From NCBI GenBank assembly GCA_029247405.1, contig JAQWLH010000216.1:1-33143 (forward strand): a DNA stretch of 33,143 bases. Reading direction: 5' to 3'. Shown here one piece after another: positions 1-28,802 of this stretch. The DNA is from Mariniblastus sp. GTDB lineage: Bacteria > Planctomycetota > Planctomycetia > Pirellulales > Pirellulaceae. The position numbers and the translations under genes are program-made. The number at the start of each line of letters is the position of its first letter. Within the stretch, counting starts at the first letter, position 1. A model generated the notes under the pieces. That model ran no database searches. It was not told the origin of the DNA and saw only the letters and a list, made by a program, of their open reading frames with translations.

Positions 1-480
1 AGTTGCAATCCAAGGCATCAGATTCAACCGATCAGAGAATCCATTGGATTCGTCCTTGGAATTTCCCTTGCGGTCCTCAAGCCGCTTTAGAATCTTGCTG
101 GTCGTCAAGACAATCGAAGCTTTGGCATTCTCGGCAATCGCATTGATCCGCCCCATCTTTCGATTACGAGGAGGTGGGTAAGCCGGCACCGGAACGACTC
201 CAGCGTAGTGGCACGCAAAAAAAGCGGTGACGAACTCAAGCCCCGGATCGTACATCATGAGTGCACGCTGGCCAGCGAAACCCATCGAGACGAGTTGAGC
301 TGCAATCGCTCGCGCATTCCGATCCAACTGGCCAAAAGTGAGTGTGTCACTCACTTCTTCGCCTCCTTCGAGGAAACGATAGGCAATCGATTCAGGCTGA
401 GCGATCGACCAGTATCTCAGTCGTTCCAGAAAATTCGTTTCCGGGGGCGAATAAGGGGATAGCAATTCTTCAAGATTCAC
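1..480 (-). CDS. Fatty acyl-AMP ligase / acyl-CoA synthetase-like protein, N-terminal part (cut by window edge)
   Basis: The frame is open from the left edge to an in-frame stop at 559-561; 160 residues are visible. The likely start is GTG at 478-480, because no ATG lies between it and that stop and a GGAG sits about 10 nt upstream. Residues 45-110 match the N-terminal subdomain of AMP-forming (ANL) enzymes: TLTFGQLDRNARAIA, then a Y-D-P-G-L-E-F stretch, then AGVVPVPAYPPPRNRK (residues 93-108). The run of prolines after VPAYP is typical of fatty acyl-AMP ligases, which activate fatty acids for transfer to carriers in lipid or polyketide synthesis. The adenylation core motifs and any fused ACP or PKS domains lie outside the window, so substrate and product cannot be judged. 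Family assignment is firm; FAAL over acyl-CoA ligase is probable. Confidence 0.85.
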   Translation of the reverse strand, partial: MNLEELLSPYSPPETNFLERLRYWSIAQPESIAYRFLEGGEEVSDTLTFGQLDRNARAIAAQLVSMGFAGQRALMMYDPGLEFVTAFFACHYAGVVPVPAYPPPRNRKMGRINAIAENAKASIVLTTSKILKRLEDRKGNSKDESNGFSDRLNLMPWIAT

Positions 481-962
481 TTCGTAAGAACTCCGGGTTC
501 CATCTGGACCTTGGTGACCTGATCGTTGAGCACGAACAGGTCGCCAGTGACGCGAATGTCACATTAAGTTTCACCGAGATTATAACACTTCCGTAACTTA
601 TCTATCAGTCCGTTTCGCCCCTGTTTCACAGCGAAGACGCTCAAGCCGTTTTGCCCAAACTGCAGAATCCGTAAACCACGGTCTCACCTATATAACCGTT
701 GGTCGCAGGCAAAAATCAGTGACATCACGCGGATAATTTATTCTCCCCAGCTCCATAAAAACTGAAACGCTCGTAAAACTCGGGGATTATGGCGATTTGA
801 ACTCTTCCCTCACACAAACTGTTGGTGAAAAAGCCAATGTTGAAAGGAATGTGAGCATTTTTCAAGTTTTTACGATTGAAAGTCCGAAAACAAATAAAGG
901 AACCAGTAATTGCCCTCAACGGCCAGGATTAGTAGCGGTCTAACATGTACAGAGAAAAACAC
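481..962. other. Intergenic region between divergent acyl-AMP ligase and small membrane protein
   Basis: About 480 bases with no convincing gene. The short open frames here have no recognisable motifs. The only signal I see is the TATAAT on the minus strand at 579-584. The region should hold the promoters of both flanking divergent genes. Confidence 0.5.
579..584 (-). promoter_or_regulatory. Candidate -10 box upstream of the acyl-AMP ligase gene
   Basis: A perfect TATAAT on the minus strand, about 100 nt before the proposed GTG start at 480. No convincing -35 box is seen at 16-18 nt spacing, so this is only a candidate. Confidence 0.3.
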
Positions 963-1172
963 ATGTCGATTTTACAAGCTGAACCATCCCAAACCAAACC
1001 AAGAACTCCAGGGGCTATGAAACGGTGTCGTTCTTGTTGGCGTGAAGACGTTCATCATGCGGTCACATTCTCACCAGTTGTGTTTGGATTTTTGTTGGTT
1101 GCAACCTTCGGTTTGATCTCCGTTGTTCGACCCTCACGTTGCTGTTGTTGTGGTACCGTCCGGGTGCTCTGA
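963..1172 (+). CDS. Small single-helix membrane protein with flanking Cys pairs
   Basis: The predicted product has 69 residues. It has a CxxC pair near the N-terminus (Cys22/Cys25), a hydrophobic stretch of about 17 residues (roughly 38-55, VVFGFLLVATFGLISVV) and a second cluster, CCCCG at 60-64, which contains a C-x-x-C-G. This arrangement, a split zinc-ribbon-like set of cysteines around one membrane helix, is unlikely by chance in a random frame and argues that the gene is real. Start choice is open: ATG at 945, 963 or 1017 are all in frame, none with a strong ribosome binding site. The 1017 start would leave a 51-residue protein beginning MKRCRSC. I do not know its function; metal binding or redox at the membrane is a guess. 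Confidence 0.5.
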   Translation: MSILQAEPSQTKPRTPGAMKRCRSCWREDVHHAVTFSPVVFGFLLVATFGLISVVRPSRCCCCGTVRVL

Positions 1173-1254
1173 ACTCGATTGCCATCAGTTTAAAGCAATG
1201 TTAATTCTTGAAATGACATTTAGCCTGATCTGTCGACGAGGGTTGGTTCGCGGT

Positions 1255-20965: not shown

Positions 20966-21625
20966 CTAGTCATTTAATTCGATCGTTTGCCAAAGACTGG
21001 GGTCTTCTGAAATGGGTAACTCGGGGCCGATCGCAAGAGTCTGCCTCCCGAGTTCACGGTCGACAACGGTGAAGTTAAAACCAAGCATACGGTGGTCGTT
21101 GGTGTTCCATCCGTTTAATGCCTTTCCTGATATAAAGGCTGAGATCTTGTAGCCTGTTTTGTTGATTTTCGAGGCGATGTCAATCTTATGACGATTGATC
21201 GTTGGTGAATCATCTTTGCTGCGATTGATCTTTAACATGCTGGCGATTGGCTTTTTGCCGTCGATTCCTCCACCGACCGGGAGTAGAGCAATCCAATGAC
21301 AGAATTTTGATGCGCGGTGCACGTTGTGAGTGTCGCGTGTGTCGATCCAGACTTGAATTCCATCGCTATCAAGGATTTGTGATTCGCGGCACCAGAGCGA
21401 TTGCTCTTTTTTGGTTATCTCCGATGAAATGAAAAGTCCCTTTTCACTCCATCCAACTCGCAGATCGGCAAACTGAAATTGGCCTTCGAATGCACCAAAA
21501 TTTGGTAACAGGTATTCGTCAGAAAGCTCGAAGTCACTGCTCGGTTTAGAATCAAACTTTTTGCAACCAATGCGGTATCGAAACAATAAGTTTTTTGGGA
21601 TTTGTGCGACGATTGAATTTGACAT
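20966..21625 (-). CDS. CBM9-like (carbohydrate-binding) domain protein, 219 aa
   Basis: A single beta-sandwich pattern typical of CBM9/DOMON-type modules: LRVGWSEKGLFISSEI (55-70), then DSDGIQVWIDTRDT (86-99), where the D-x-x-x-x-W-I-D-T-R-D signature is the best hallmark, then HRASKFCHWIALLPVGGG and a late strand HRMLGFNFTVVDRELG. No signal peptide is present, so unlike classical CBM9 proteins it appears cytoplasmic or non-classically exported. No catalytic domain is attached. It sits 130 bp downstream of uvrA on the same strand; no functional link to repair is evident. The role is unknown; sugar binding is inferred from the fold only. Confidence 0.78.
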   Translation of the reverse strand: MSNSIVAQIPKNLLFRYRIGCKKFDSKPSSDFELSDEYLLPNFGAFEGQFQFADLRVGWSEKGLFISSEITKKEQSLWCRESQILDSDGIQVWIDTRDTHNVHRASKFCHWIALLPVGGGIDGKKPIASMLKINRSKDDSPTINRHKIDIASKINKTGYKISAFISGKALNGWNTNDHRMLGFNFTVVDRELGRQTLAIGPELPISEDPSLWQTIELND

Positions 21626-21755: not shown

Positions 21756-24700
21756 TCAAGCAGGTAAAGATTTTGCGTGTTCACTCAAAAAATTCTCTAG
21801 CTTTTGGCCGACCTGTTCGACGTCGATAAAACTCATTCGGAGCAGGTCCAGATCATCTTTGGTCGTTACCGTTGGAGCTTCGCCAATGTCAGCGACGCGA
21901 CCTACTTCCACACTGTCTTTAGGACCGGCAACCTCAAGCCAAACTCCATCCGGTTTTTTAGTTTGAATACTGACCCAAGGGTGTTTTTGCTGAGGCAAGT
22001 AGACGTGAACAACTTGCTTGTTGTTCCACAGGAATTGACTGTCGGGAGCTGCTTTTTGGATGACCTCTTGGAGCATTTCGAGGACTTCCGGTTGCCACTT
22101 GATCTTCTGCCCGGGCGTAAACCCTTTTCGCATTAGATGCCATTTTGAACCCAGCTTTGCCCAAGGGGACTCGTCCTCGACCTTGGCTTTATTTTGCTCC
22201 GGCTTGTTGCGGAAGCTGTCGAGTGCATCGTCAAGGAATTCCCAAAAACCAGGAATGTCTATTTCGGCCATGTTATTGGCACGGATTTCGATTTCTTGCC
22301 AAGAGCCCTTGGTGTTGGTCAGCTTGACCCTCGGTGTATTACCATAAACTGGAATGTCTTCGAGGTCATTCGGACGGAGCAGCGGGATTTGCTGGACTAA
22401 TTCATCACGCTTGAAGGTCTTGGGTCGGACACGGAATTTCATCTTTAAAAACCACGGATCACCCGTCAAAGCGTGGAAAAACGAGCCTTGGCTTTTCTTG
22501 GTTCCGTTGATTTCGACAACTGACCGTTCGTTCCAGTTGGTTTCACTTAAGCCTTGGTGCTGTTGAATGTAGTCGACCACTTTGGTCAAGATTTCACCGT
22601 CCCAGTGAACTGTTTCACCCCCCCGCCCTACTCGATCTTTGGAATGCCATAGTCGCCCGTCGGCTTCCCACGGCATCTTGGCGGCTGCTCCAACGTCTTC
22701 GATATCCATATCCCCTTTTTTCCAGCGATCGTCTTTCGCCGGATCGTAAACCTTACGTTCCTTGTAGGGATCTGACTCGAGTACTTCGATCATGGCCTCA
22801 CCGGTCCAACTGCGTGGCATTCCAGCTTTGCTTTTTCCGGTTTTGGAGGCCGCAGCCAAGGCTTCCTTGGCATACTCGACGACCATTTCTGGCGTACCTT
22901 GGGTGACGATCTGCCCGCCCCCGGCACCCGCCTCGGGGCCCAAATCAATCACCCAGTCCGCGGCTTTAATCATGTCAAGGTTATGTTCAATCAGAACGAC
23001 CGTGTTTCCCACATCAATCAACCTTTGAATTACATCCAATAACTTTTGGAGATCGTCAAAGTGGAGGCCTGTAGTTGGCTCATCCAGCAGGTACATCGTT
23101 CGGCCGGTGTCTGGTCTCGCCAGCTCTGCAGATAATTTTACTCGCTGTGCTTCACCTCCTGAAAGCGTTGGTGCACTCTGCCCAAGCGTTACATAGTCGA
23201 GTCCCACGTCGCAAAGCGTTTGCAGAATGCGGCGAATCTTGGGGATATTGTGAAACAATTTAACCGCTTCTCCACACGACATTTTTAGCACGTCATCGAT
23301 GGATTTTCCGTTGTATCGGACTGCTAACGTTTCACTGTTGTAGCGTTGGCCTTTACAGGTTTCGCAGGGGACCCAAACATCAGGAAGGAAGTGCATCTCG
23401 ATACAGATGTGTCCGTTTCCAAAACACTCCTCGCACCGACCCCCGGGGACATTGAAGCTGAATCGCCGCGCGGTATAGCCACGGATTTTTGAATCCGGTA
23501 GGTGTGCAAATAACTCTCGAATTGCATCAAAGGCACCCGTGTAGGTCGCCGGGTTGGAAGACGGCGAGTTACCAAGCGGAGTTTGGTCAACACGAATGAC
23601 TTTGTTGATATGCTCAATTCCACGAATCCCTTTGTGGGCGCCGGGGGTCTGTGTTGAACGATGAAGGCGACGGGAAAGGGCCTTGAATAAGATGTCGTTG
23701 ACCAGCGAACTCTTCCCACATCCACTTGGTCCGGTGACGACACTCAACGTTTCAAGTGGAAACTTGACTTCGATATCTTTCAAGTTGTTATGGCGAGCGC
23801 CAACGACGTCCAGCGTTGTCGCCAACTGCATCGGGGCGGCTGGCTTTTTGGCTGACTTTTTCTTCGTAACTTTCTTTTGAGTGGCTTTCTTCTTGGATGC
23901 TTTCGCTGGTTTGGGAAGGTCCAAAGACAAAGCGGGTCGTCGGTTGGACGGAATCGGAATCGCTTTTTTACGGCTCAGGTAAGGCCCAGTCACCGAGCCT
24001 TTATTTTTCGCCACGGTTTCGGGAGAACCGCTGGCTACGATTTCTCCGCCACCCGATCCCGCCTTGGGTCCAAAATCACAAACAGCATCGCTGTTTTCAA
24101 TGACCTCACGGTCATGCTCGACCACAATCATTGTGTTGCCAAGATCACGAAGGCGATGCAATGCCTTCAGTAATCGTGTGTTGTCGCGCGGGTGCAGGCC
24201 GATTGTTGGTTCGTCTAGCACATATAGGACACCGCACAGACCGCTGCCCAACTGGCTGGCCAGTCGGATTCGCTGGGCCTCTCCGTTGGAAAGCGAGGCA
24301 GCGGTTCGATTGATGGTGATGTATTCCAAGCCAACGTCGTTGAGAAAATCGACTCGGCCTTTGATCTCACGAATCAATTCACCGGCAATTTTCTTTTCAC
24401 GCGGATCGAGCTTCCATTTCTTCAAAGTCTTGGTCAACAAGCCGAGGGGAAGGCGGCAGATGCCATCAATCGTCATGTCACGGAAACGGACGGCTGAGGC
24501 ATCGTCACGAAGACGACTTCCGCCGCAACACCCACATTCAACCTCGCCGATCAGCGACTGCATTCGTTGGCGAAGTTGTGCCGAAAGACGAGACGCCTCT
24601 TCCATCGTTGGATAGACGCCTTTGTATTGAAACGAAAACTTGGTTTCGCCCTTGCTGTTTGTGACGGAGAACCAGCGGTCTGCCGAGCCGTAAAATACCA

Positions 24701-27700
24701 TGCGGCGATGGCGTGCTTCCAATTGGTTGAACGGAACGTCGATTGGTATTCCCGTCCCATTGGTCCAGGACTCCAGCATCGCCTTGGAAATGTTGGAATT
24801 GATATTTGGCCACAGCGAAATGGCTCCGTCAGCGAGCGAAAGTTCGGCGTCGTTCATGATCGCTGCTGGATCAGCCCCCGTTTGCACGCCGATGCCCTCA
24901 CAATCCGGGCACCAGCCAAGTTTGCTGTTGAAGGAGTAGTTGTGAGGCGTGAGCGCGTCGAAACTTCTTCCGCAGCATGAGCAGGAAAGATGCTGGCTAT
25001 GTTTAACGGTTCGCCAATGCTGTTCCGGGATTTTCTCATTGGTCTCGGCGACATGGATGATGCCCTTCCCGATTGCCAAGGCCGATTCCACTGAGTCGGC
25101 GATGCGTGAACGCGAAGCCTGCTTGATGACCAAGCGGTCGATCACAATTTCAATTAAGTGTCGAGAACGACGGTTGATGAGAGGCACTTCGTCGATCCCA
25201 TAGGTCACGTTGTCAACGCGAACACGGATGTAACCGTTGGTGCGGATTTCTTCCCAGAGTTGTTCGTAGGTCTGGTTGGTGTCGAGTGAGATTGGTGCCA
25301 TTAATAGCAACCGCGTCCCCTCTTCGTAATTTAAGAGCTTGTCGACAATGTTGTCACTGGTTTGTGTGCCGATCGCCAAGTCGCAATCGGGGCAATAAGG
25401 CGTGCCTAAGCGTGCCATCAGGATGCGCAGATAGTCGTAGACTTCGGTCACGGTGCCGACGGTACTACGCGGTGTCGAGCCGAGGTTTTTTTGTTCGATC
25501 GCAATCGCGGGCGAGAGACCCTCGATGTGCTCCACTTTTGGCTTTTCAAGTTGATTGACAAATTGGCGGGCGTATGAACTCAGGCTTTCCACATACCGTC
25601 GTTGCCCTTCGGCGTAAATTGTATCCATGGCCAAAGAGCTTTTGCCACTGCCGCTGGGACCGCAGAAAACAGTCATTTTGTCACGAGCAATATCAACATC
25701 GATTGAGCGCAGGCTATGTTGTTCGGCGCCGCGAACTTTGATTTCAGTTGCTTGGACCGGTTGCTTGTTCTTTTTGTTCTGAGGTTTGATGATCTCAGGC
25801 TTGGCAGCGAGGGCTTTCTTGAGGGCTCGACCGGTGTAAGACTCGTCGCATTGAGCGACCGTTTCAGGCGTGCCGGCGCACACAACTAGTCCACCACCTG
25901 ATCCACCTTCTGGGCCAATGTCAATGATCCAGTCTGCCGTCTTGATTACGTCCAAATTATGCTCCACAACCAAGACCGTGTTGCCGGCGTCGACAAAATT
26001 TTGTAGCACCTTGAGCAACATCGAAATGTCGGCGAAGTGCAGGCCGGTTGTTGGTTCGTCAAGCAGGTAAAGCGTTTTTCCCGTGCTGCGTTTGACTAAT
26101 TCACGCGCCAGTTTAATTCGCTGGGCTTCACCACCGGAAAGCGTCGGAGAGGGTTGACCAATCTTCAAATAGTCCAGACCAACGGCGTGCAACGTTTGCA
26201 GTTTGCTGAAAACTTTGGGGATGTTTTCAAAGAAAGTCATGGCTTCCTGAATGTCCATGTTCAACACGTCGGCAATGGATTTGCCGCGAAACTTGACCTG
26301 TAATGTTTCTCGATTGAACCGCTCACCATTACAGACGGGGCAAGTGACCCAGACATCGGCTAAAAAATCCATTTCAAGTTTGTTTGAGCCGTTTCCCTCG
26401 CACGCCTCACAACGTCCCCCTTTGACGTTAAAACTGAATCGGCCCGGCGGGTAGCCACGAGTTTTTGCTTCTGGGAGTTGGGTGTAGAGTTTGCGGATTT
26501 CGTCGAATAGTTTGATGTAGGTTCCAGGATTTGACCGTGGGGTTCGACCAATAGGTGATTGGTCGATTGCGATCATTTTGTCCATCAAATCGACATTTTG
26601 GAGCTCATCAAATTCGCCGGCTTCACTGATTCCACCGTTGAGGATTTCACGAAGTTCTTCTTTGACGATGTCATTTACCAGAGAACTTTTCCCACTGCCA
26701 CTAACCCCGGTCACGCAAACGAATTTACCGAGCGGGATTTCAACGTCGATGTTTTTCAAGTTGTTGTGACGGGCGCCTTTGATCCTGAAAACACGATCCG
26801 TGTCGAACTCACGTCGGGTTTCAGGGATTTTGATTTCAAGATCACCCGAAAGATACCGTGCCGTAAGGCTCTTCTTTGATTTGATTATTTCCGACGGGTG
26901 ACCTTCGACGACTACTTCACCCCCTCGGACACCGGGTCCTGGACCGAAGTCAATCAGGTAGTCTGCGGCACGCATGGTGTCCTCATCGTGCTCAACAACT
27001 ACGACCGTATTTCCCAGATCTCGAAGGTGTTGCAGCGTTTCGACCAAGCGGTCATTGTCTCGCGAGTGGAGTCCGATTGAGGGTTCGTCGAGAATGTATA
27101 GCACGCCTACCAAGCCGGCACCAATCTGGCCAGCGAGGCGGATTCGCTGGCTTTCGCCGCCGGAAAGCGTTGGAGCTGTTCGATTCAGCATCAAGTAATC
27201 CAGACCTACGTTGAGGAGAAAACCGAGGCGGTTTCGGATTTCTTTCAAAGGCTCTGTCGCGACCAGTTGTTTTATGTCGTCGAGAATCAATCCGCTGAAA
27301 AACTCGTGGGCATCAGCAATTGACAGGTCACAAACTTGAGGCAAAGACAGGCTGGGGTTCTCGGCGAATCTCTCACTGGATGTCGCGAGACGGAAATGCC
27401 GAGCTTGCTCGTTGAGTCGATCGCCTTCACATTCGATACAACTAACTTCAGCCATGTATTCTTCGAGTTTTCGAATTCTCGAGGCGCCGTTCGTGTTGCG
27501 GTATTTTTCGTCAAGCTCGGAAACAATGCCTGCGAATTTACCGCCATACTTCATAGGCGAGCTTCCACCCCGCCACGTAAACGTAATGTTAAGATCGCCG
27601 GTCCCGTAAAGCCAAACGTCTTGTTGCTCTTCAGTTAAATCTTCCCAAGCTGTTTCGAGCATGGTGCCTTTTTCAAGTTCATGCTCCCTTTCGTAGGTGT

Positions 27701-28802
27701 CGGCAACTCCTTGGTAAATATGTTTTTTCCAGCGGCCGAGATCTTTCCATTTCCCCAGCAGATCAAAGCAACCTTGCTGGAAAGATTTGACGCTGCCCGA
27801 TACCAACAAATCACGCTCAAAGGTGAAGACGTCTCCAAGACCATCGCAACCGGGGCACATCCCCTGTGGACTGTTGAAGCTGAACATCTGGGGCGTCGGC
27901 GGAGAAAAACTGATCGCACAGGCAGCACAAGCGTAGTCCGCTGAGTAGACGCGGTCCCCTTCGGCGGCAAATGATCGTTTGGCACGCGATTTGCGCTTCG
28001 TTTTGGTTTTTGCTTGGAGCTCATCCTCTATCGCAGCTGGAAGATTGGCTTCTGGATTGGTCGGCTTGGCTGAATCATCATCGTTATCGAGGGCGACAAT
28101 CAACGTGCCTTTACCGATTTTGAGCGCCGATTCGACGGTTTCGGACAGGCGTGCGCGAATGCCCTCTTTCGCGGTAATTCGATCAATGACGACTTCGATA
28201 TTGTGCCGTTTGGAGCGATCCAGATTAATTTCTGATCCAAGTGAGACAGTTTCACCGTCAACGCGGGCACGAACAAACCCCTTCTTCAACAACCCGGTAA
28301 ACAAGTCACGATGCTCGCCTTTTTGTTGGCGAACAACTGGAGCAAGCACATTGAACTGGGTTCCTTTTTCCAGCTGTAAAATGCTCCCGATGATTTGATC
28401 GCGTGTTTGAGCGGCAATGGGCTGATCGCACTTGGGGCAATAGCCCTGCCCGACTCGTGCATACAGGATCCGCAAAAAGTCGTAGATCTCTGTGATTGTT
28501 CCGACGGTACTTCGCGGGTTGTTCCCCGAGGACTTTTGGGAGATGGAGATCGATGGACTGAGTCCCGAAATCAAATCAACATCGGGCTTGGGCATTTGGC
28601 CAAGGAATTGGCGTGCAAAACTCGACAAGCTTTCAACGTACCGACGTTGGCCTTCCGCAAAGACGGTGTCGAACGCGAAAGAGCTTTTACCGCTACCGCT
28701 AACACCCGTGAGGCAAATTAGTTGGTTGCGGGGAAGGACAAGACTGACATCGCGAAGATTATGTTCGCGAGCACCTTTAACAACGATATCCGAAGCAGGC
28801 AT
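21756..28802 (-). CDS. uvrA: Tandem (double) UvrA excinuclease subunit A with novel C-terminal extension
   Basis: UvrA is the DNA-damage-recognition ATPase of nucleotide excision repair; the usual protein is about 940 residues and works as a dimer. This one has 2348. Unit 1 (about 1-975): Walker A GVSGSGKS (33-40), LSGGES (546-551), second Walker A (699-706), zinc module Cys798/801/821/824, LSGGEAQ (888-894). Unit 2 (about 1015-1980): Walker A GPSGSGKS (1048-1055), signature LSNGEAQ (1504-1510), second Walker A GPSGCGKS (1691-1698), zinc module Cys1790/1793/1813/1816, LSGGEAQ (1880-1886). Both units keep the insertion region that binds UvrB in normal UvrA. Lys-rich linkers occur at about 262-282 and 1629-1655. 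Residues 1990-2348 are an extension outside the UvrA family. The chain resembles a covalent UvrA dimer. No frameshift is seen over 7 kb. Confidence 0.96.
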   Translation of the reverse strand: MPASDIVVKGAREHNLRDVSLVLPRNQLICLTGVSGSGKSSFAFDTVFAEGQRRYVESLSSFARQFLGQMPKPDVDLISGLSPSISISQKSSGNNPRSTVGTITEIYDFLRILYARVGQGYCPKCDQPIAAQTRDQIIGSILQLEKGTQFNVLAPVVRQQKGEHRDLFTGLLKKGFVRARVDGETVSLGSEINLDRSKRHNIEVVIDRITAKEGIRARLSETVESALKIGKGTLIVALDNDDDSAKPTNPEANLPAAIEDELQAKTKTKRKSRAKRSFAAEGDRVYSADYACAACAISFSPPTPQMFSFNSPQGMCPGCDGLGDVFTFERDLLVSGSVKSFQQGCFDLLGKWKDLGRWKKHIYQGVADTYEREHELEKGTMLETAWEDLTEEQQDVWLYGTGDLNITFTWRGGSSPMKYGGKFAGIVSELDEKYRNTNGASRIRKLEEYMAEVSCIECEGDRLNEQARHFRLATSSERFAENPSLSLPQVCDLSIADAHEFFSGLILDDIKQLVATEPLKEIRNRLGFLLNVGLDYLMLNRTAPTLSGGESQRIRLAGQIGAGLVGVLYILDEPSIGLHSRDNDRLVETLQHLRDLGNTVVVVEHDEDTMRAADYLIDFGPGPGVRGGEVVVEGHPSEIIKSKKSLTARYLSGDLEIKIPETRREFDTDRVFRIKGARHNNLKNIDVEIPLGKFVCVTGVSGSGKSSLVNDIVKEELREILNGGISEAGEFDELQNVDLMDKMIAIDQSPIGRTPRSNPGTYIKLFDEIRKLYTQLPEAKTRGYPPGRFSFNVKGGRCEACEGNGSNKLEMDFLADVWVTCPVCNGERFNRETLQVKFRGKSIADVLNMDIQEAMTFFENIPKVFSKLQTLHAVGLDYLKIGQPSPTLSGGEAQRIKLARELVKRSTGKTLYLLDEPTTGLHFADISMLLKVLQNFVDAGNTVLVVEHNLDVIKTADWIIDIGPEGGSGGGLVVCAGTPETVAQCDESYTGRALKKALAAKPEIIKPQNKKNKQPVQATEIKVRGAEQHSLRSIDVDIARDKMTVFCGPSGSGKSSLAMDTIYAEGQRRYVESLSSYARQFVNQLEKPKVEHIEGLSPAIAIEQKNLGSTPRSTVGTVTEVYDYLRILMARLGTPYCPDCDLAIGTQTSDNIVDKLLNYEEGTRLLLMAPISLDTNQTYEQLWEEIRTNGYIRVRVDNVTYGIDEVPLINRRSRHLIEIVIDRLVIKQASRSRIADSVESALAIGKGIIHVAETNEKIPEQHWRTVKHSQHLSCSCCGRSFDALTPHNYSFNSKLGWCPDCEGIGVQTGADPAAIMNDAELSLADGAISLWPNINSNISKAMLESWTNGTGIPIDVPFNQLEARHRRMVFYGSADRWFSVTNSKGETKFSFQYKGVYPTMEEASRLSAQLRQRMQSLIGEVECGCCGGSRLRDDASAVRFRDMTIDGICRLPLGLLTKTLKKWKLDPREKKIAGELIREIKGRVDFLNDVGLEYITINRTAASLSNGEAQRIRLASQLGSGLCGVLYVLDEPTIGLHPRDNTRLLKALHRLRDLGNTMIVVEHDREVIENSDAVCDFGPKAGSGGGEIVASGSPETVAKNKGSVTGPYLSRKKAIPIPSNRRPALSLDLPKPAKASKKKATQKKVTKKKSAKKPAAPMQLATTLDVVGARHNNLKDIEVKFPLETLSVVTGPSGCGKSSLVNDILFKALSRRLHRSTQTPGAHKGIRGIEHINKVIRVDQTPLGNSPSSNPATYTGAFDAIRELFAHLPDSKIRGYTARRFSFNVPGGRCEECFGNGHICIEMHFLPDVWVPCETCKGQRYNSETLAVRYNGKSIDDVLKMSCGEAVKLFHNIPKIRRILQTLCDVGLDYVTLGQSAPTLSGGEAQRVKLSAELARPDTGRTMYLLDEPTTGLHFDDLQKLLDVIQRLIDVGNTVVLIEHNLDMIKAADWVIDLGPEAGAGGGQIVTQGTPEMVVEYAKEALAAASKTGKSKAGMPRSWTGEAMIEVLESDPYKERKVYDPAKDDRWKKGDMDIEDVGAAAKMPWEADGRLWHSKDRVGRGGETVHWDGEILTKVVDYIQQHQGLSETNWNERSVVEINGTKKSQGSFFHALTGDPWFLKMKFRVRPKTFKRDELVQQIPLLRPNDLEDIPVYGNTPRVKLTNTKGSWQEIEIRANNMAEIDIPGFWEFLDDALDSFRNKPEQNKAKVEDESPWAKLGSKWHLMRKGFTPGQKIKWQPEVLEMLQEVIQKAAPDSQFLWNNKQVVHVYLPQQKHPWVSIQTKKPDGVWLEVAGPKDSVEVGRVADIGEAPTVTTKDDLDLLRMSFIDVEQVGQKLENFLSEHAKSLPA
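21783..22166 (-). repeat. UvrA C-terminal extension, domain copy B
   Basis: Residues 2213-2340. Anchors are Pro2213-Trp2214, Trp2221-His2222, Trp2236 and Trp2259. The Trp spacing of 7, 15 and 23 residues is identical to copy A. This is repetition at the protein level; the DNA copies have diverged. Confidence 0.75.
22224..22673 (-). repeat. UvrA C-terminal extension, domain copy A
   Basis: Residues 2044-2193. Anchors are Pro2044-Trp2045, Trp2052-His2053, Trp2067 and Trp2090, followed by a DPWF segment (Trp2117) that corresponds to HPWV (Trp2276) of copy B. I do not recognise the domain family. Confidence 0.75.

Follow-up and report, generated by a model that had tools for sequence, protein, structure and literature searches.

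A duplicated alpha/beta domain at the C-terminus of the double UvrA protein of planctomycetes

In most genomes of the class to which Mariniblastus sp. belongs, the double UvrA protein ends in a duplicated alpha/beta domain, which is tethered to the last nucleotide-binding domain. As judged by sequence comparison, the domain is named by none of the family libraries searched (Pfam, NCBIfam, PHROGs and PDB sequences). We infer that the C-terminal tail formed by the two copies serves planctomycete UvrA as an accessory binding module, with DNA binding slightly favoured over protein binding.

The gene was found on a stretch of 33,143 nucleotides of Mariniblastus sp. DNA, the whole of which is referred to as the window (Table 1). 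The encoded protein belongs to the UvrA family according to two NCBIfam models, TIGR00630 (2499 bits; cut-off 729.8) and PRK00349 (2584.5 bits; cut-off 1147), and the Pfam domains UvrA_inter and UvrA_DNA-bind were each detected on two stretches of the frame, indicating that the chain is made up of two UvrA units. The same arrangement is represented by NCBIfam PRK00635, the double UvrA of Chlamydia, a model of 1809 positions, which leaves no room for the tail. The motif RSxTGEA, presumably the usual end of UvrA, is located at residues ~1997-2003, and the tail then extends to residue 2348. The fusion of UvrA in Planctomycetes, again with two units per chain, has been reported in PMC8567305, the available text of which assigns domains with Pfam 32 and describes no C-terminal domain; judged by titles, this was the only paper relevant to planctomycete UvrA in the literature covered, to which subscription papers mostly do not belong. 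Directly downstream of the UvrA gene and on the same strand lies an open reading frame of 219 residues (window 20966-21625, minus strand), for which only a sub-threshold NCBIfam match to a Zn-dependent hydrolase was obtained (17.1 bits; cut-off 570).

Table 1. Position of the double UvrA gene and its C-terminal domains in the window, with conservation of the Trp/His set over 62 loci
Feature	Position	Strand	Basis or conservation
Fused double UvrA open reading frame, 2348 aa, with C-terminal domains	21756..28802	(-)	ORF list and translation; NCBIfam, Pfam
UvrA half 1, residues 1-998	25809..28802	(-)	Top-scoring PRK00349 stretch, residues 4-998
UvrA half 2, residues about 1011-1985	22848..25772	(-)	Second UvrA domain set; half-to-half matches in relatives
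Linker of ~50 residues (1986-2035), contains RSxTGEA, precedes copy 1	22698..22847	(-)	Conservation over 62 loci
Domain copy 1, residues 2036-2204	22191..22697	(-)	Profile match to copy 2; alignment A3; AlphaFold2 model
Domain copy 2, residues 2205-2348, reaches C-terminus	21759..22190	(-)	Profile match to copy 1; alignment A2; element order in tail model
Pro-Trp of copy 1, P2044 W2045	22668..22673	(-)	P 61/62, W 61/62 loci
Trp-His of copy 1, W2052 H2053	22644..22649	(-)	W 61/62, H 61/62 loci
Third Trp of copy 1, W2067	22602..22604	(-)	W 61/62 loci
Fourth Trp of copy 1, W2090	22533..22535	(-)	W 60/62 loci
Pro-Trp of copy 2, P2213 W2214	22161..22166	(-)	P 60/62, W 59/62 loci
Trp-His of copy 2, W2221 H2222	22137..22142	(-)	W 61/62, H 62/62 loci
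Third Trp of copy 2, W2236	22095..22097	(-)	W 62/62 loci
Fourth Trp of copy 2, W2259	22026..22028	(-)	W 58/62 loci

The first-pass annotation of the window had proposed a duplicated domain at residues 2044-2193 and 2213-2340 (positions 22673-22224 and 22166-21783), marked in both copies by Pro-Trp, Trp-His, Trp and Trp at an identical spacing of 7, 15 and 23 residues. The coordinates proved to be right, the spacing was verified residue by residue, and true internal homology of the two copies was confirmed by comparison of profiles, by shuffling, by searches with the copy-2 profile and by the tree described below. A likeness produced by chance or by composition might be thought of, since at least four Trp came into register in 354 of 200,000 shuffles of both segments, but the full Trp/His set was generated in none of the 200,000. 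Moreover, hhalign of the copy-1 and copy-2 family profiles gave 98.9% (P 2e-17, 141 columns, 17% identity) as compared with 1.0% for the control of copy 1 against reversed copy 2, and a profile made from copy 2 alone had matches in 23 genomes of a phylum sample (n = 294), in 22 of which it picked up copy 1 too. Based on the shuffles and on the profile comparison with its blank reversed control, chance and composition were rejected and have virtually no probability left.

The copy profiles were built from 62 loci, representing 60 distinct sequences (two identical pairs): the window, ten loci reached by scanning genome contigs, solely with patterns derived from the window and all of them planctomycete, 22 loci from the phylum search and 29 from the family search. 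A total of 47 of these loci were included in the copy-2 search profile (A2). The 7-15-23 spacing is conserved in 57 of the 62 loci for copy 1, where the row of locus L033 is an alignment fill because this locus has a single copy, and in 49 of the 62 for copy 2. With respect to the bounds of the domain, both of the proposed segments lie within it, but the domains extend beyond the proposed limits, copy 2 continuing to the C-terminus and both copies carrying a conserved lead-in. The conserved basic residues in the 62-locus alignment include R2050, R2093, K2103, R2124, R2158, K2226 and K2282; the copies are not basic overall, their mean net charge per 100 aa being about neutral (copy 1, -2.3; copy 2, -0.3).

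The view that the domain is unrecognised also withstood the searches, for nothing above the curated cut-offs was found in Pfam or NCBIfam with the tail or the copies, and no characterised sequence family aligns with them. PHROGs gave no match to the tail, and among PDB sequences there was no significant match to the tail or the copies. The best Pfam trace on the tail was SymE (PF08845) at 12.1 and 15.2 bits, and the same family was detected in one of 47 copy members at 13.9 bits; a SymE-like toxin was rejected, as all these values are below the curated cut-off of 29 bits. A trace of DUF1801 in one copy-2 member (E 0.035) was taken as chance among 47 scans.

Matches to the tail of the window were found in 134 of the 149 genomes of its family, and matches to the copy-2 profile in 180 of the 198 genomes of its class (completeness of at least 90% required) and in 23 of the 294 genomes of the phylum sample, two of them outside the class, the genome of the window being included in each count. 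No relatives of the domain were detected in viral contigs, and plasmids and phages gave nothing better than E 2. In profile searches covering the phylum, the domain appears so far to be restricted to planctomycetes.

Among the 18 non-matching genomes of the class, the UvrA end was inspected in 16 (G533 and G577 being left out). One copy-1-like domain each, missed by the copy-2 profile, was found in G470, G504 and G515; UvrA is cut by the contig end in G485, G502 and G313, and in G313 is also broken into frames; and the UvrA inspected in G523 and G442 is not double. The remaining eight (G536, G579, G585, G591, G452, G466, G303 and G472) have a double UvrA without recognisable copy, indicating that the domain can be dispensed with. 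The double UvrA of G472 (locus L228) carries a C-terminal tail of ~350 residues that matches neither copy and that is either very diverged or a different extension.

Wherever UvrA was present on the same contig, the inspected copies were all located at the end of the UvrA frame or of its last fragment. UvrA is split into two or three genes in five of the inspected genomes, G087, G105, G024, G194 and G540 (loci L100, L101, L102, L103 and L180, respectively), and in all five both copies reside on the piece that carries the last nucleotide-binding domain. In the split pattern, UvrA1 and ~257 positions of UvrA2 form one gene, and the remainder of UvrA2 together with the C-terminal domains forms another, the distance between the genes being 12 kb in G024 and 0.8 Mb in G540; three UvrA pieces were found in G105 and G087. 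The assemblies of G024, G105 and G540 are single contigs. In G024, G194 and G540, UvrA sequence begins at the very start of the last fragment, which argues against a split intein.

A stand-alone gene for the domain was not proven among the frames inspected in the family, class and phylum searches. Candidates were rejected as contig ends (L115, L116, L175 and L178), as overlapping frameshift-like frames (L174, L179 and L181, the last with a run of N) or as parts of the split UvrA described above (L100-L103 and L180). A frame of 382 residues with both copies, L182 of G505 (55-1200, plus strand), is located near the contig start with no UvrA visible, and may represent a contig end, a frameshift or a separate gene. 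Further short frames from the class search, for instance in G333, G587, G492 and G495, fall outside the inspected set.

A tree was made of 52 rows from 22 hand-picked two-copy loci and 8 single-copy loci, with a midpoint root and under a long-branch warning. The copy-1 rows were separated on one side and the copy-2 rows on the other (26 versus 26 including the singles; support 100/96), and both copies of two genomes from outside the class sorted with their own copy type. This split, which includes the genomes outside the class, implies that the duplication predates the diversification of the class, unless the domain was transferred. The single copies of L223, L225, L226 and L227 (family f104) were placed on the copy-1 side, and those of L104-L107 (f1, the family of the window) on the copy-2 side. 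Read from these sequences, the single-copy lineages represent losses of different copies, f104 keeping copy 1 and f1 copy 2. Since some lineages retain just one copy, of either kind, joint action of the two is not required, and such single losses favour partly redundant modules over an obligate pair.

The loss of either copy in different lineages, the eight double UvrAs with none and the location at the same protein end in the inspected loci would also agree with a mainly structural cap, which would lie against the second half of UvrA and stabilise the fused dimer while binding little ligand itself. Such a cap is rather unlikely, because the linker that precedes the domains (residues 1986-2035) was modelled at low confidence in an AlphaFold2 tail model from which UvrA was absent, and because the aromatic set is spacing-exact in both copies despite ~17% identity.

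Models were made with AlphaFold2 of the whole tail (11 sequences; pLDDT 72, pTM 0.46) and of copy 1 alone (pLDDT 85.6, pTM 0.84). In the tail model, copy 1 is composed of helix, four strands, helix, two strands and helix, and copy 2 of helix, four strands, a three-residue turn, two strands and helix. The copy-1-only model follows the order alpha-beta3-alpha-beta2-alpha after a helical lead-in, which holds the PW and WH pairs. The structural agreement of the two segments, on which the first-pass annotation had made its claim depend, was thus observed in the order of elements within the tail model, but the best structural neighbours differ between the two models.

In Foldseek search of the PDB, no row was obtained at E 0.001 for the tail model. 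Among the matches listed, a single compact one reached probability 1.00, namely 1kaf, the DNA-binding domain of T4 MotA (E 0.02, tenth by E-value; TM 0.63 by target; rmsd 3.9 A, 108 columns); 5jlt, the complex of MotA with DNA, was matched at probability 0.82-0.89. The nine rows that precede MotA by E-value, including glutamate dehydrogenase and LAGLIDADG endonucleases, showed probability of at most 0.51 and rmsd of 15-24 A, leaving the C-terminal 'double wing' domain of MotA as the best compact high-probability neighbour of the tail model. As MotA was absent from the best 50 rows for the copy-1-only model, the match would by elimination belong to copy 2. The BFVD fold search gave no useful lead, its highest probability (0.93, E 0.025) being that of the Bacillus phage G protein Gp484.

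The MotA domain is described as consisting of three helices and six strands (PMC2988021) and as straddling the DNA major groove (PMC6755090). T4 MotA differs from the host of the present domain in being a phage transcription factor, not a repair protein, and there is no sequence signal between MotA and the copies: against a set of nine sequences (T4 MotA and eight of 1103 phage records), hhalign gave 0.1-0.2%, as compared with 0.2-0.6% for the reversed controls. The value for YjbR against MotA, however, was also 0.1%, though the two structures are reported to be similar (PMC7641849). This pair being equally blank, the sequence test is insensitive, and its blank result is compatible with a shared fold.

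The mechanism that we tentatively prefer, at a confidence somewhat short of even, sees the copies as MotA/YjbR-like 'double wing' modules gripping duplex DNA beside the footprint of UvrA. UvrA is described as contacting DNA mainly via signature domain II, the insertion domain and the Zn3 hairpin (PMC7835731), and two double wings attached to the last nucleotide-binding domain could give extra flanking contacts. The module would work together with UvrA during the damage search, and its grip may keep the covalently closed UvrA pseudo-dimer on DNA, or stabilised at the lesion, during the loading of UvrB; an ordered aromatic core or a binding surface would be built from the almost invariant PW-WH-W-W set. 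This mechanism is supported by the linkage to UvrA, the occurrence in 180 of the 198 class genomes, the split genes, the MotA match and the conserved basic residues. It is weakened by the E-value and tenth rank of MotA, its absence from the best 50 rows for copy 1, the lack of a sequence link and the dispensability of the domain, and the near-neutral charge of both copies counts against a simple grip of DNA.

The same near-neutral charge and the strong conservation of the aromatic set are in agreement with a protein-docking module, the partner of which would be UvrB, UvrC, Mfd, RNA polymerase or a different region of UvrA itself. Peptide binding is a property of type III secretion chaperone-like domains, and the confident copy-1 model has proteins of this type as well as YbjN/DR_1245 proteins among its closest neighbours in the PDB, together with an unnamed Pyrococcus protein of the highest probability (0.77). 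These fold matches are weak, with TM of at most 0.44, rmsd mostly of 8-12 A and none at E 0.001, and the partner is hypothetical. Docking is a possible role of the tail, nearly as likely as the DNA grip.

YjbR belongs to the secretion chaperone-like fold class, in which the elements follow the order alpha-beta3-alpha-beta2-alpha, and the order of helices and strands in the modelled copies is similar to that presumed for YjbR; in E. coli, yjbR presumably adjoins uvrA. The proteins of the YjbR family are described as having the same double-wing fold as MotA, with single examples fused to nucleases, and MmcQ/YjbR (PF04237) is likewise a small alpha/beta domain that is fused elsewhere to DNA-acting proteins (PMC7641849). 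That the tail is a diverged member of this family fused to UvrA is nevertheless improbable. No match to PF04237 was detected up to E 10 in the tail and both copies, at E 1 in the 47 and 46 members, or in the genome of the window. Against 35 sequences of 37 YjbR loci (two under the cut-off being omitted), hhalign gave 1.3% for copy 1 and 1.0% for copy 2, within the range of the reversed controls (0.3-1.4%), and the PW-WH pair was found in 0 of the 35. No YjbR entry was included among the best 50 PDB rows of the fold search with either the tail or copy 1. Membership by sequence in either the YjbR or the MotA family was rejected, as hhalign was no better than the reversed controls. With low probability, the tail could also be a new planctomycete domain for recognition of damage or DNA in nucleotide excision repair, in which the spacing-exact Trp/His set makes an aromatic pocket for a base that is distorted or flipped, or for some other ligand, and the old pair restores a two-sided contact to the fused, asymmetric UvrA.

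For annotation, the tail provides a new domain family, and its host UvrA is among the repair proteins that have been studied intensively. An extra UvrA domain that was duplicated before the class diversified and then lost copy by copy suggests a planctomycete addition to the damage search, and the tail is a defined part that could be removed to learn which factors limit UvrA on DNA in the living cell.
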